Origin: a virus
DNA length: 39,323 nucleotides
Virus record (IMG/VR): IMGVR_UViG_3300033141_001167
Span: 1-39,323 of that record
Strand: one strand, 5' to 3'
Shown: in pieces, positions 4,685-12,275 of the stretch
Numbering within the stretch: the stretch's first letter is position 1
Layout of the letters: each line of letters starts with the position of its first letter
Made by a program: the position numbers and the translations under genes
The notes under the pieces: model-generated
What the model saw: the letters and a program-made list of their open reading frames with translations, nothing else
Told to the model about the DNA's origin: nothing
The model's database searches: none

Positions 4685-5512
4685 TTATTTATATAGTATC
4701 CGTTTAGGCTTAATCGGTTGCCTATTAAATCTTCTCGATAGATATATGAGGTGACCTTTGAGTTCTTGGAACTCGTCTCGTGTTACCGCACCGATTGGTA
4801 TGTATTCCTTTGTATCATCCCATAATGTTTGTAGCTCTTCGGGGTTGTGAGTTTTAAGCCATTCGGTTACATCCCTACTCCCCAGTTCTAATACTTTCAG
4901 GGATTTAGCCCAGCCGTATAAAACATTGGCTATCTTCTCGGCGTGCTTCCTACCTGCTGTATCAGCATCGGGAATAATTGCTATCCTTGCGCCCTTCAGT
5001 GTTTCGGTATATTGTGGCTGCCACGCACTAGAAGCACCACCCGATATGGAAGTTGATACCAACCCATAGGCTTCTAAATTCAAGCAATCTTTCTCTCCCT
5101 CAACAAAGAAGACTATTCTATCCTGGGAGATGGCGTTTAGAAGTTCTGGCAATCTAAACAAAACTGGCTTTATGCCGTTTAAGTTCCACACATACTGACC
5201 ATCAACTATGCGTCTCTGCTTGAAGTTCTTGGGGAAGTATCTGACAACTTGATACAAAGGGTTGCCATTCTCGTCTGTATAGTTGTAGACTTCTTCCTCT
5301 TGTGGTGTTTTAGGGTCAAACTTAATATCAAGTGCGGTTAGGATACTTCCAAAACTACACCCCGCAAAACAGTGGAGAAGGACTTTACCATCAGCCTCCC
5401 TTAATGATAGGGAATTATGGGCATCATCGTGGGCGGGACACAATGCCGTATATCCACTACCCGACTTTCTGACTCCGCTTAACTTACCCAAAACATCATT
5501 AAGTTCAATCAT
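4685..5512 (-). CDS. Phage DNA primase (CHC2 zinc finger plus Toprim)
   Basis: The N-terminal zinc motif is CPAH (C25, H28) with C48 and C52. The Toprim catalytic motifs are VEGEKD (137-142) and PDADTAG (181-187). This is the DnaG-type arrangement but only 275 residues long, without a helicase domain, which is supplied by the separate ATPase gene downstream. It would synthesise RNA primers during phage replication. Start ATG overlaps the upstream stop (ATGA) with GGAGAA before it. The basic C-terminal tail after residue 240 is of unknown use. Confidence 0.9.
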   Translation of the reverse strand: MIELNDVLGKLSGVRKSGSGYTALCPAHDDAHNSLSLREADGKVLLHCFAGCSFGSILTALDIKFDPKTPQEEEVYNYTDENGNPLYQVVRYFPKNFKQRRIVDGQYVWNLNGIKPVLFRLPELLNAISQDRIVFFVEGEKDCLNLEAYGLVSTSISGGASSAWQPQYTETLKGARIAIIPDADTAGRKHAEKIANVLYGWAKSLKVLELGSRDVTEWLKTHNPEELQTLWDDTKEYIPIGAVTRDEFQELKGHLIYLSRRFNRQPIKPKRILYK

Positions 5513-5706
5513 TTGTTCTCCAATATAAACCTTGCTATTTCGCCTGCTTCTCTGGGATTGAGGATGATAGTTGCTACATAATTCCTAGCCTCTGTCTGTT
5601 TGTCCACCCTAGTTAGACTAAACCTCTCCTCGTCCCGCCTGATTGTTACTTTCTCTACACTATTGTCGGTGATAACTCTTTCTTTCACTTTCCCCTCCCT
5701 ATTCAT
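5509..5706 (-). CDS. Hypothetical protein (65 aa) upstream of primase
   Basis: The start at 5706 is chosen because GGGAGG lies 8 bases upstream; a longer frame starting at 5754 would run through the structured RNA element and has no ribosome site. The product is basic and ends in RNYVATIILNPREAGEIARF, a style seen in small phage proteins of unknown role. The pseudoknot element closes immediately before its Shine-Dalgarno site, so its translation, and that of the coupled primase, may be controlled by that RNA. Confidence 0.7.
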   Translation of the reverse strand: MNREGKVKERVITDNSVEKVTIRRDEERFSLTRVDKQTEARNYVATIILNPREAGEIARFILENK

Positions 5707-5719
5707 TTCGTTTCCTCCC

Positions 5720-5789
5720 GCCCTGCGGGGCTGGTGACGCCTAGCTATGTTCACTCACCACTTGCCATCATAGCCTCACCCCGCAGGGC
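5720..5789 (-). ncRNA. Pseudoknot unit 2 of the large RNA, abutting a ribosome site
   Basis: An 11-bp stem, GCCCTGCGGGG with CCCCGCAGGGC (5779-5789 and 5720-5730), encloses stem a GGCTATG/CATAGCT (5769-5775 with 5743-5749, including a G-U pair that favours the minus-strand transcript) and stem b TGGTGA/TCACCA (5755-5760 with 5732-5737). Order and sizes match unit 1 while most inner bases differ. The outer stem ends directly before the GGGAGG site of the next gene. Confidence 0.75.
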
Positions 5790-5858
5790 TTTTGTGGATG
5801 GGCTTGGCATTTCAACCATATCCAGCAGTTAATTATCAGATACTGCCCCATCCCCTAT

Positions 5859-5923
5859 CCTGCGGGACTGGTGGTCATCAGACTATGCGAACCACCTTTG
5901 ATAGTCTTCTCCTGTCCCGCAGG
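5859..5923 (-). ncRNA. Pseudoknot unit 1 of the large RNA
   Basis: A 10-bp stem, CCTGCGGGAC with GTCCCGCAGG (5914-5923 and 5859-5868), encloses an H-type pseudoknot. Stem a is AGACTAT/ATAGTCT (5901-5907 with 5880-5886) and stem b is GGTGGT/ACCACC (5891-5896 with 5870-5875). Loops are CAAA, TCGC and GATG. The strand order is outer, a, b, a', b', outer'. Confidence 0.75.
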
Positions 5924-6289
5924 GCTTGTTACCTGAGCCACCCTAGCTAATCCTCGCTTCGGGCATCCACAACATACACTGGACAGGGCGCATCTGCGAC
6001 TCAGGCTTCCTGCCAGCTTATTTTCACCCAACTTCCTCTGTCTCTCAAAGCCCTATTTCTAGGGGGACTGGGAGCCGCTTCCACCAGCGACAAGGCTGAT
6101 TTCTTCTGCTTTGTTGGTAACTGGCACTCGCTGGCTCGGCAAACTTCCCCTTCTAGCGGTGCCGATTTCTAGCCATTAGCGCATTGGGCACGGACACCAG
6201 CAAGCACTGGCTGGCAGTTTCTCACTACCACTTAGATTACCTTTGACCTCACCAGCTATTCAATTGTTACTCCTTCTCTATTTTGATAT

Positions 6290-6727
6290 TTAATCCTCTT
6301 TTTGGATAAAGTGCTTGGCCACCATTTCATCAAATACAGATGGGTCTTTAACTGTAATATCTCCCACAATCCACCTGTTGATGACTTCGGCATAAGATAG
6401 CAATTTATCAGGCGCTACTATTCCCTGACCGACAAGCGTTACGGCATACGACATAGAAATAGACCTTTGTGTTTGGTCGCCATTCCGTTTTGGCTTGCCT
6501 TTTGTTTCACTTACGGCATCTTCAATTATCTTTTCGTGTTCGGGCAGCAGCTTGTTCCTACCTTGTGGCGGGAGGTTTGCATCTGCCACCTCTTTCCCCT
6601 TGTTGGCTAGTGCCTTTTCTATCTTCTTGCTTGCCTCACTAGCGGTTAGCTCCTCATCGCTGTAATCCTTGCCCGTTAGCTGTTCTAGGAATTTAAGTTG
6701 TTTAACTGTCGCTGGTGTTGTTGCCAT
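6290..6727 (-). CDS. Hypothetical phage protein (145 aa)
   Basis: Two adjacent ATGs occur; the second is chosen because GGGAGG then lies six bases away. The N-terminal module (TVKQLKFLEQLTGKDYSDEELTASEASKKIEKAL) is a short helical unit common in phage proteins of unknown function. The C-terminal half (SMSYAVTLVGQGIVAPDKLLSYAEVINRWI) is also helical. It lies directly upstream of the large RNA gene. A DNA-binding role is possible but not shown. Confidence 0.75.
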   Translation of the reverse strand: MATTPATVKQLKFLEQLTGKDYSDEELTASEASKKIEKALANKGKEVADANLPPQGRNKLLPEHEKIIEDAVSETKGKPKRNGDQTQRSISMSYAVTLVGQGIVAPDKLLSYAEVINRWIVGDITVKDPSVFDEMVAKHFIQKED

Positions 6728-6736
6728 CATTTACCT

Positions 6737-6762
6737 CCCATTCTTTTAATTTGGCTTGCCAC
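6737..6762 (-). repeat. Duplicated gene-end segment, copy 1
   Basis: 26 bases identical except one to 7393-7418. In copy 2 it encodes the in-frame end of the 64-aa gene (WQTKLKEW); here it is read in another frame and meets a stop early. Confidence 0.8.
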
Positions 6763-6958
6763 ACCAATCCTCTTTTTCTTGACACCAATGGCACCCCTCG
6801 CCATTATCCATTGTGGCGTGCTGTGGATTTAGGCGATAGCACATTGGGCAGATAATCTCGTCCCATACTTCCCTTATCCCATCCTGATAGTCAAGGTATC
6901 TCTGGCTTGGGACTTCTCCGATACAATCATCTTCTATTGTTTTTTTATGCGGGTTCAT
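6746..6958 (-). CDS. Hypothetical zinc-ribbon protein (70 aa), hybrid of a duplicated gene
   Basis: The first 33 residues are nearly those of the 64-aa protein at 7382-7576; 22 codons are identical at the DNA level. The middle is a different segment with CPMC and CHWC, a probable zinc ribbon. The last bases return to sequence shared with the other copy but in a shifted frame, ending CGKPN. AGGAGG precedes the ATG, and the start overlaps the upstream gene by 14 bases. Function unknown. Confidence 0.75.
   Translation of the reverse strand: MNPHKKTIEDDCIGEVPSQRYLDYQDGIREVWDEIICPMCYRLNPQHATMDNGEGCHWCQEKEDWCGKPN
6867..6932 (-). repeat. 66-bp perfect direct repeat, copy 1
   Basis: Identical to 7482-7547. 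It encodes the same 22 residues (DDCIGEV through DGIREV) near the N-terminus of two neighbouring small genes. Zero mismatches imply a recent duplication or gene conversion. Confidence 0.9.
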
Positions 6959-10327: not shown

Positions 10328-10354
10328 TTCATCCTCCTTACTTAATCCCTTGCT

Positions 10355-10382
10355 GGACTCACCAACCTGAGTTGCCGAGTCC
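10355..10382 (-). other. Intergenic hairpin in the early operon
   Basis: A two-tier hairpin: GGACTC/GAGTCC closes CAAC-TCAG-GTTG. It sits between two early genes with no T-run after it, so it is more likely an mRNA stability or processing element than a terminator. Confidence 0.5.
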
Positions 10383-10393
10383 TCTGTAAGATA

Positions 10394-10561
10394 TTAAGTT
10401 GTTTTTACCTCCTTTTGTGTTTGAATACTAAACCGGCTGTCAAACCCCTCTTCGGTGCCAAACTTACTGACCCATAACTTACGGTAAGTGTCGTAAGCCG
10501 CCATAATCTCCCTGATTATCTCCCTGCCCTCCTCGGCTGTTATAGCTTCTAATCCTTTCAT
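10394..10561 (-). CDS. Hypothetical protein (55 aa)
   Basis: 55 codons starting MKGLEAITAEEGREIIREIM behind GGAGTTAAGGAAA. Acidic helix followed by a basic, Gln/Lys-rich tail. Fills the gap between two neighbours. Family unknown. Confidence 0.6.
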   Translation of the reverse strand: MKGLEAITAEEGREIIREIMAAYDTYRKLWVSKFGTEEGFDSRFSIQTQKEVKTT

Positions 10562-10600
10562 TTTCCTTAACTCCTCAATAGTGGGCGGGTATGTTTTTAT

Positions 10601-10849
10601 TTAGTGGGCTTTAGCCCTACCAATTCCTTTCGGGATTTGCTTTTCTTTTACCCACGCCTCTCGTTCAGCCTTCAGTAGCTGGTAGTGCTCGTCACAGATA
10701 AAATACCAACCACCTTCCCTGAACTCTACGCTATGTTGCGGGTAGCCACAGTCGTAATGTATGCACCCGTGGTGATGATACTTACCATCATAGAAACATA
10801 TTTGGGGTTTGCCTGGATTAGGGCAATCTTTTACTGCACACAAATTCAC
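10601..10849 (-). CDS. First early gene: Cys/His-rich zinc-binding protein (82 aa)
   Basis: The promoter-proximal gene of the early operon. GTG at 10849 is chosen because GGAAGGGGG ends 7 bases upstream; a TTG one codon earlier is the alternative. It is rich in Cys and His (CAVKDCPNPGKPQIC, HHHGCIHYDC, CDEHY), indicating two zinc sites. As the first early product it could act on host transcription or on the divergent control region, but that is inference only. Confidence 0.7.
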   Translation of the reverse strand: MNLCAVKDCPNPGKPQICFYDGKYHHHGCIHYDCGYPQHSVEFREGGWYFICDEHYQLLKAEREAWVKEKQIPKGIGRAKAH

Positions 10850-10883
10850 CAACGAACCCCCTTCCTACCCGCCCACTATTCAG

Positions 10884-10936
10884 AAGTTAAGTTGAACCGT
10901 ATCACCATTCCTGTGTGGCGTTCAACCTTGTAACTT
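10884..10936. repeat. Imperfect inverted repeat in the control region
   Basis: The left arm AAGTTAAGTTGAAC (10884-10897) is matched by the reverse complement of 10920-10936 with a 3-base insertion. Overlapping it is a direct repeat of ATTCAG-N2-GTTAAG. It lies in the predicted 5' leader of the early transcript and could form an RNA hairpin or bind a dimeric regulator. Confidence 0.55.
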
Positions 10937-10970
10937 ATTCAGTTGTTAAGGTGCCTGATTTGATACTACA

Positions 10971-10999
10971 AGCCTACCATAGCCTCGAAAGGTTGTCAA
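10971..10999 (-). promoter_or_regulatory. Candidate early promoter
   Basis: Minus strand TTGACA (10994-10999), 17-base spacer ending TATGG, then TAGGCT (10971-10976). Consensus -35 with a TG extended -10 but a weak -10 hexamer. It would transcribe the whole early operon. Confidence 0.5.
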
Positions 11000-11013
11000 G
11001 TAGAACATCTGTT

Positions 11014-11182
11014 CGGTTGAGCCTAGAGTTTACATAATCGGGTTGAGATAGGCACAAAATAGATTTCTCAAAAGCGCCCCACAGTATAATCGGATTGTTG
11101 ATAGCCATCTTGTGTAAGCGGATTGGGTGTCAACTAGGCTAGGGTGTTATCTCAACCGATTGTTCGGTAGCAAACTATCTCA
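11014..11182. promoter_or_regulatory. Repeated operator-like motifs
   Basis: Related sites: CGGTTGAGCCTAG (from 11014), ATCGGGTTGAGATAG (from 11037), ATCGGATTGTTGATAG (from 11089), GCGGATTGGGTGT (from 11118), the inverse TTATCTCAACCGAT (11147-11160) and a half site CTATCTCA just upstream of the late -10. The spread over both promoters suggests one regulator reading several sites. Confidence 0.5.
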
Positions 11183-11187
11183 TAATA

Positions 11188-11196
11188 TGGTATAAT
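11188..11196 (+). promoter_or_regulatory. Late promoter, extended -10 (TGGTATAAT)
   Basis: Perfect TATAAT with TG at the extended position and no good -35, followed about 80 bases later by the first late gene. The same TGNTATAAT form occurs at 22223-22231 and 27068-27076. The absence of a -35 suggests help from an activator, or reliance on the extended element alone. Confidence 0.65.
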
Positions 11197-11280
11197 AGAA
11201 GATAAATAGGTGTGCTTATTAAATTAAGCGGGAATATAGCCGTTTTAAGGGCGGGTCAGGGCTATAAGAGGAGTGTTACT

Positions 11281-11664
11281 TTGACTGAAGATAATCAGAC
11301 TGAAAAACAATCACCGCTCAGTCACTTTGGGGATAAGCTAAAGCAGTGGAAGCCTGGGGAGTCTGGTAATCCAGGTGGCAAGCCAAAGGGCAAATCCATC
11401 ACAGCTGAACTCAGGAAGCTATTAGACAAAGGCACGACTTCAGAGGAATTAGCGCAGATACTACTTGATATGGCCAAGACCAAGACGGGCAGGAATCAGC
11501 TTGACGCCCTTAAGGAGGTATTAAACAGAAGCGACGGCAAAGTTCCCGATACTCACAAGATAGAGTCGGACGTTCCCATAAGCATTGTATACAAACAGGT
11601 AGGAGGTAGAGATGGACAAAGCGTTACAAAGGGAGAAGACGAGGGAGAGGGTTCGCAAGCATAG
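11281..11664 (+). CDS. Small terminase-like protein (DUF5681-type)
   Basis: TTG start at 11281, seven bases behind GAGGAG; a GTG 69 bases earlier would be almost leaderless from the promoter. Residues 15-45 hold the QWKPGESGNPGGKPKGKSIT motif found in DUF5681-type proteins encoded next to large terminases, followed by a helical region (LRKLLDKGTTSEELAQILL). Position just before TerL genes supports a role in DNA recognition for packaging. The 127-residue length suits a small subunit. The assignment comes from motif and context. Confidence 0.65.
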   Translation: MTEDNQTEKQSPLSHFGDKLKQWKPGESGNPGGKPKGKSITAELRKLLDKGTTSEELAQILLDMAKTKTGRNQLDALKEVLNRSDGKVPDTHKIESDVPISIVYKQVGGRDGQSVTKGEDEGEGSQA

Positions 11665-11947
11665 GGCGTTACAAAGAAGCGTTACAGAGACGGCTGATAA
11701 TGTAACGCAAAGCCCTGATAGCGTTACAGAGGGCATAGATAATGTAACGCTGGGTGTAACGCATCCCGTTATGAAGTATCTCATTAAAGAGGAGAGGGTA
11801 GACGACAAGCCCACCAACAGGGAGAAGATGGAGGGCATAGTAAGAAAGCTCGGAGACCACAGGCAATTAAGCAATGTATACTTTGGATGTGGTAAGTATT
11901 CTTTACCAATGGACGCAGTAGGTGAGTTATTAGAGATAACTACATAA
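11612..11947 (+). CDS. Hypothetical protein with VT repeats (111 aa)
   Basis: Excellent AGGAGG site before the ATG; overlaps the TerS-like gene by 53 bases. The N-terminal part is basic (REKTRERVRKHRALQRSV) and then repeats SVT/NVT units, because the underlying DNA is a cluster of GCGTTACA sites. The C-terminal half is mixed alpha/beta. The repeat may exist for the DNA rather than for the protein. Function unknown, possibly a second packaging component. Confidence 0.7.
   Translation: MDKALQREKTRERVRKHRALQRSVTETADNVTQSPDSVTEGIDNVTLGVTHPVMKYLIKEERVDDKPTNREKMEGIVRKLGDHRQLSNVYFGCGKYSLPMDAVGELLEITT
11621..11762. repeat. Seven-site GCGTTACA cluster, candidate packaging (pac) site
   Basis: Forward sites GCGTTACA start at 11621, 11666, 11679 and 11721; inverse sites TGTAACGC start at 11701, 11743 and 11755. 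Two 42-bp direct repeat units each contain one forward and one inverse site 22 bp apart (11679/11701 and 11721/11743). It lies in and just after the TerS-like gene, where pac sites of headful phages are often found. Alternatives are a transcription or partition regulator site. Confidence 0.6.
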
Positions 11948-12102
11948 TGGTATGAGGCGCACTAGGATAAAAATCTAGGCTGTTATACGGTAAACTAATG
12001 GTAAAGTATGGTCTGAATATAAAGGCACCCCATATAAGGGGGGTGGGTATCTATTATGGTGCACCGCACACAGAGAATTCACTAAAAATGATTACTTAAC
12101 AT
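11948..12102 (+). other. Non-coding stretch before the tRNA-like element
   Basis: No gene is visible. There is a G/C hairpin CACCCC-ATATAA..-GGGGTG (12026-12045) and the self-complementary GGTGCACC (12058-12065). Neither has a following T-run. It may be part of a leader or of a decayed insertion. Confidence 0.4.
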
Positions 12103-12255
12103 AACTAGGTGGCGGAATAGGTAGAAACATGGGATTTACAGACATACTTGGATGGGTGTTTTTGGGCACAGTAATTTGCTGTATTATTGCTGGTGCCGTG
12201 ATATTTGTGAAGAAGGTTAAACTTTATCCATAGGGTGCAAATCCCTAGCCTAGTT
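12103..12255 (+). pseudogene. Interrupted tRNA-Leu-like element
   Basis: The 5' part matches the start of bacterial tRNA-Leu: GTGGCGGAAT and GGTAGA in order after AACTAGG. The 3' part has a T-arm-like TAGGG-TGCAAAT-CCCTA (12231-12247), then CCTAGTT, which pairs all seven bases with AACTAGG (12103-12109). The span is 153 nt against about 85 for tRNA-Leu, the D-stem pairing is lost, the invariant T at position 55 is G, and no anticodon arm is visible. The middle is occupied by a 34-codon frame. It is read as a decayed or invaded tRNA, not a working one. Confidence 0.55.
12129..12233 (+). CDS. Small membrane peptide inside the tRNA-like element (34 aa)
   Basis: 34 codons encoding one clear membrane span (ILGWVFLGTVICCIIAGAV) followed by a basic end (KKVKLYP). 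The ATG falls in the former D-arm and the stop in the T-stem. The ribosome site is weak (AATAGG). It could be a small holin-like or superinfection protein; function unproven. Confidence 0.5.
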   Translation: MGFTDILGWVFLGTVICCIIAGAVIFVKKVKLYP

Positions 12256-12275
12256 TTAGAAGAAAGGAGAGCAAA

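Follow-up and report, generated by a model that had tools for sequence, protein, structure and literature searches.

The source of the DNA is a 39,323-base virus record, analyzed over its full length (the window), in which the minus strand carries the early genes (exonuclease-like, HNH, NinG, an ATPase/helicase-like protein, and a primase) and the plus strand carries the genes for packaging and structure (terminase, major head, and tail). The original prediction described a 583-bp gap among the early genes, and this gap is real; it extends on the minus strand from ORF 6290-6730, which encodes 146 aa and has no family, to ORF 5509-5706. The features of the locus are listed below.

5707-6289, minus strand: non-coding gap between two early genes, with a G+C content of up to 54%
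6270-6277, minus strand: candidate Shine-Dalgarno-like sequence AGAAGGAG, followed by a five-codon frame, TTG-AAT-AGC-TGG-TGA
5930-6222, minus strand: 5' half of the gap, with candidate long-range stems at chance level (6217-6210/6017-6010, 6134-6128/6090-6084, and 6005-6000/5937-5932)
6051-6064, minus strand: GAAA-loop hairpin CCCTA-GAAA-TAGGG, a candidate from sequence only
5859-5923, minus strand: PK-A, with P1 at 5923-5914/5868-5859 (10 bp), P2 at 5907-5901/5886-5880 (7 bp), and P3 at 5896-5891/5875-5870 (6 bp)
5720-5789, minus strand: PK-B, with P1 at 5789-5778/5731-5720 (12 bp including one G-U), P2 at 5775-5769/5749-5743 (7 bp including one G-U), and P3 at 5760-5755/5737-5732 (6 bp)
5714-5719, minus strand: putative Shine-Dalgarno GGGAGG, which begins at the first base after the PK-B stem
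5509-5706, minus strand: downstream gene of 65 aa (MNREGK...ENK) with its ATG at 5706 and no known family
4685-5512, minus strand: DNA primase (zinc ribbon and Toprim), the next gene in the same operon

The gap at 5707-6289 is non-coding. Pfam searches of six stop-to-stop frames from the gap returned no match, even at E 1, and the longest stop-to-stop frame on the minus strand within it is 65 aa. The codon-phase signal of positions 5701-6180 is the lowest among all 480-nt windows of the 39-kb window (0th percentile), with a value of 2.1 per 480 nt compared to 8-27 for the neighboring genes. These results agree with the predicted absence of a usable gene. The G+C content rises to 53.6% in the gap versus about 44% around it, as expected for a structured RNA and also for foreign DNA. 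The gap is not unique in the window; another long non-coding stretch, with a coding signal of only 2.6 per 480 nt, lies at about 10330-11200, where two operons diverge and the GC skew switches sign, and it is probably a promoter/regulatory region. Many direct and inverted repeats of GTAACGC/GCGTTAC occur on the plus strand at 11618-11764, inside reading frames near the transcription divergence, and are a possible binding-site cluster.

Folding stability was compared with shuffled sequences for the whole region and for its parts. Folded as a whole, the 590 nt give a z of -2.73 for the minus strand against -2.18 for the plus. The values outside PK-A and PK-B are -0.8 for the 5' half, -1.2 for the middle domain, and -0.2 for the spacer, and the majority of 120-nt windows in these parts have unremarkable folding values. 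When the region is divided, only PK-A and PK-B carry the structural signal. The proposal that all 583 bases form a single ornate structure is not supported by these numbers, with the plus strand z nearly as low and the sub-domains outside the units ordinary. The many stems that had been reported divide in the same way: those of the two units are above chance, whereas those of the 5' half (5930-6222) are not, stems of 5-8 bp at such spacings being the chance expectation in 590 nt. The GAAA-loop hairpin is present at 6064-6051.

PK-A (65 nt) and PK-B (70 nt) are located in the 3' third of the gap, with 70 bases between them and a period of 134 nt. Both units have the same design, in which a G+C-rich closing stem of 10-12 bp surrounds two helices of 6-7 bp that form an H-type pseudoknot. 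In PK-A, P2 (AGACTAT/ATAGTCT) is interleaved with P3 (GGTGGT/ACCACC), and in PK-B, P2 (GGCTATG/CATAGCT) is interleaved with P3 (TGGTGA/TCACCA). A unit was defined as a 9-bp closing stem with two 6-bp interleaved helices, and its frequency was measured in shuffled windows that keep the local dinucleotide content. The shuffles gave 34 units in 2000 windows (0.017 per window) compared to two within 210 bases of the real window, so the two complex pseudoknot units of the original prediction, at 5923-5859 and 5789-5720, are real and more frequent than chance would give. The fold z is -4.95 for PK-A and -5.39 for PK-B, and slightly wider borders give -4.2 and -5.5, respectively. Nested folding is unable to display P2 and P3 together and picks P3 in PK-A; P2 and P3 could therefore be alternatives instead of simultaneous helices.

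The two units are related to each other. When a covariance model is built from PK-A alone, its next match on the minus strand is PK-B, at 23.3 bits (E 0.003), and P1 and P2 align in register. The symmetry of P1 gives the plus-strand image of PK-A a score of 25.1 in the same model. MAFFT misaligns P2 of the two units, and the register was taken from the PK-A covariance model and alignment by hand. The P1 sequence is nearly identical between the copies. Each helix contains one double compensatory change, A-U to G-C in P1, A-U to G-C in P2, and G-C to A-U in P3, and P1 and P2 each have one Watson-Crick versus G-U change (two one-sided changes). None of the pairs aligned in both copies is broken, and two end pairs in each of P2 and P3 occur in a single copy only. 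The compensated and unbroken pairs therefore mark PK-A and PK-B as diverged duplicates with their pairing kept. Selection on RNA structure finds its strongest support in this kept pairing, which comes from two paralogous copies in one genome.

The compensated helices also bear on the view that the gap is a remnant of inserted DNA, a decayed gene or mobile element in which the two duplicated repeats are idle as RNA. The G+C content above that of the surroundings would fit such an origin, as would the TGAATAG found at each end of the gap and the Shine-Dalgarno left on its upstream side, but among 1035 pairs of ordinary gene starts in this phage, 204 score as high as the end repeat, a protein trace is absent, and the compensated helices point to selection. 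A remnant is considered unlikely. An insertion or self-splicing element drawn from the TGAATAG end repeats was rejected on the same count, the similarity being at the level of ordinary start sites. The similarity of the 6270-6277 region to the start region at 5706 is not significant.

The minus strand is favored, not proved, as the RNA strand. The operon genes are on the minus strand, and PK-B has a predicted stability of -40.4 kcal/mol on this strand versus -30.9 kcal/mol on the plus strand. PK-A is equally stable on both strands and the P1 stems are equally good on either, which is compatible with a DNA element, a replication origin or single-strand initiation site beside the primase, with the G+C-rich hairpins acting as DNA. 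A DNA element of this kind appears improbable: the G-U pairs and stability of PK-B favor a minus-strand RNA, compensated interleaved helices are typical of RNA, and the G+C of the gap is the locally highest, which leaves no A+T-rich melting region there. A DNA-level function of the strand-symmetric P1 stem is possible.

The PK-B stem ends at base 5720, the Shine-Dalgarno occupies 5719-5714, and seven bases separate it from the ATG at 5706. PK-B is on the same strand as the ribosome-binding site and directly 5' of it, the placement of a leader. Positions 5400-6800 contain no terminator-like sites, and their promoter-like sites are at the level of shuffled sequence with none above chance; the element is therefore most easily read as belonging to the operon transcript. 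Repeated pseudoknots directly upstream of a small gene are also the layout of a type III toxin-antitoxin antitoxin RNA preceding its toxin gene. This assignment is very improbable here because there are two units only, each closed by a long stem and spaced at 134 nt, the RNA and the gene have no terminator between them, and the downstream 65-aa protein has no toxin-family match (ToxN/CptN/TenpN; no Pfam family at 0.001, and otherwise weak unrelated matches only).

Relatives of the element were sought in several collections. The Rfam search proposed for ROOL, GOLLD, and other families was run at the gathering cut-off and at E 5, and no family matched, ROOL and GOLLD included. The only sub-threshold Rfam match was PK-B to the DUF1874 RNA (RF02953) with 18.2 bits against a cut-off of 42 (E 1.6), which was read as chance. 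A blastn search of the gap against 50,697 phage records (INPHARED) and 72,556 plasmid records (PLSDB) returned only chance matches of 28-30 bases. A scan of IMG/VR with the P1 pattern found at least 120 stretches, and among the matches listed there was no comparable unit outside simple repeats. A stricter IMG/VR pattern had one match, L162, which was dismissed as lying within coding-like sequence with no other similarity. The PK-A covariance model applied to 98 loci gave a best score of 23.8 bits (E 0.06), on contigs that had been picked by the P1 pattern. Judged by terminase, the nearest phages (77% and 57%) are contigs of 16.7 and 18.8 kb, and neither contig yielded the RNA or the primase; these contigs appear not to reach the region and are therefore no proof that the RNA is absent from those phages. 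Distant relatives identified through the primase (about 40%) lack the RNA, four other early proteins used as queries brought up no relatives, and one genome scan gave a single distant terminase. The element is an orphan from a single contig, with no relative carrying it among the collections and neighbors tried.

A tRNA(Leu)-like element lies just 5' of the terminase genes, on the plus strand at 12102-12259 of the window and at about 4341-4530 in L164 (the same as L128). Where the anticodon arm would be, there is a short ORF that encodes a small membrane-like protein (MGFTDILGWVFLGTVICCIIAGAVIFVKKVKLYP in the window and MKVTLRIYTHRRRLNLGMLFDLMPSIVGVTVFILIWELWITVEA in L164). The D-arm and T-arm of the two versions are nearly identical (20/20 in the T-arm), and the 8-bp acceptor-like stem, AACTAGGT/GCCTAGTT versus GCTATGGT/GCCATAGC, has five pairs changed on both sides with the pairing kept. 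ARAGORN made no tRNA or tmRNA call on this element (in L164 it made one intron-mode call, which is unrelated), and there was no match in Rfam. Judged from sequence, it looks like a small-ORF mRNA within a split tRNA in a tmRNA-like layout. AATTCACTAAAAATGAYTACTTAACATAA is located on the plus strand at 12076-12104 and at 167-195 in L127, the closest relative, with 28 of 29 bases kept in surroundings of diverged non-coding DNA upstream of the terminase.

The results with the parts and with the databases also weigh on the idea of a phage non-coding RNA that acts in trans as a molecule of its own, about 500-580 nt long and similar in kind to ROOL and GOLLD, which would end with PK-B and be cut from the operon transcript. 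Its size and intergenic place, the whole-region fold z of -2.7, and a modular 3' half with pseudoknots are consistent with this proposal. Such an RNA is nevertheless rather unlikely, with no Rfam match and no relatives found, a 5' half no stabler than shuffles, no above-chance promoter, and no terminator. What stands of the predicted large, ornate, phage-encoded non-coding RNA is a structured non-coding element in the early operon; the ROOL/GOLLD-like size does not, and only modules of 65 and 70 nt are supported.

The explanation that fits best, held tentatively and with somewhat less than an even chance of being right, is a duplicated, cis-acting pseudoknot leader of the small gene-primase-helicase mRNA. 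The gap would be a structured untranslated leader in an early polycistronic mRNA, presumably transcribed with the operon, and it bears two diverged copies of one module, a G+C-rich stem that closes an H-type pseudoknot. PK-B directly abuts the putative Shine-Dalgarno of the small gene that precedes the primase and the helicase. For the modules, action in cis is the most likely mode, and they may set the timing or the amount of replication-gene translation, with control exerted through a bound phage or host protein or ligand, or through a switch from one of P2 and P3 to the other. Control of this kind would act on translation of the small gene, and could reach the primase through coupling. No mutually exclusive alternative structure that hides the Shine-Dalgarno was identified, and the leader reading leaves the 5' half of the gap without explanation. 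The structural evidence for the element is good and the functional evidence is weak. A bolder proposal, a new phage RNA class of repeated "pseudoknot-in-a-stem" modules that act in trans or cooperatively bind a phage protein in the replication operon of an uncultured lineage, is distinctly unlikely. If the modules are regulatory, they add an unclassified pseudoknot design to the phage mRNA control of replication genes, and the built-in second copy is useful for structure probing.

ROOL and GOLLD are phage-encoded RNAs of several hundred nt that form RNA cages and are often found close to tRNA islands (PMC12286853). The element shares with them a phage-encoded, non-coding stretch of several hundred nt with pseudoknots (PMC12286853), but no covariance model matches it, the 39-kb window has no tRNA call, and two modules of 65-70 nt are supported while a global fold is unsupported and the transcript is not delimited. 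The type III antitoxins consist of repeated pseudoknots followed by a terminator and then the toxin gene (PMC5086642). ToxI, CptI, and TenpI resemble the element in having repeated H-type pseudoknots upstream of a gene, and they differ from its two units with a 134-nt period, 10-12 bp closing stem, and neither terminator nor toxin homologue. The DUF1874 RNA resembles PK-B in a closing stem followed by GGAGGA, but the inner hairpins match poorly and the downstream protein is not recognized as DUF1874. By position only, the nearest kind in working would be the phage mRNA leaders that have a pseudoknot close to the ribosome-binding site. The leaders of T4 gene 32 and of other phage mRNAs place a pseudoknot 5' of the ribosome-binding site of a replication gene. 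The element shares with the T4 gene 32 leader a pseudoknot upstream of the ribosome-binding site in what would be a phage replication-gene leader, and it differs in having two copies of the pseudoknot, each within a long closing stem.
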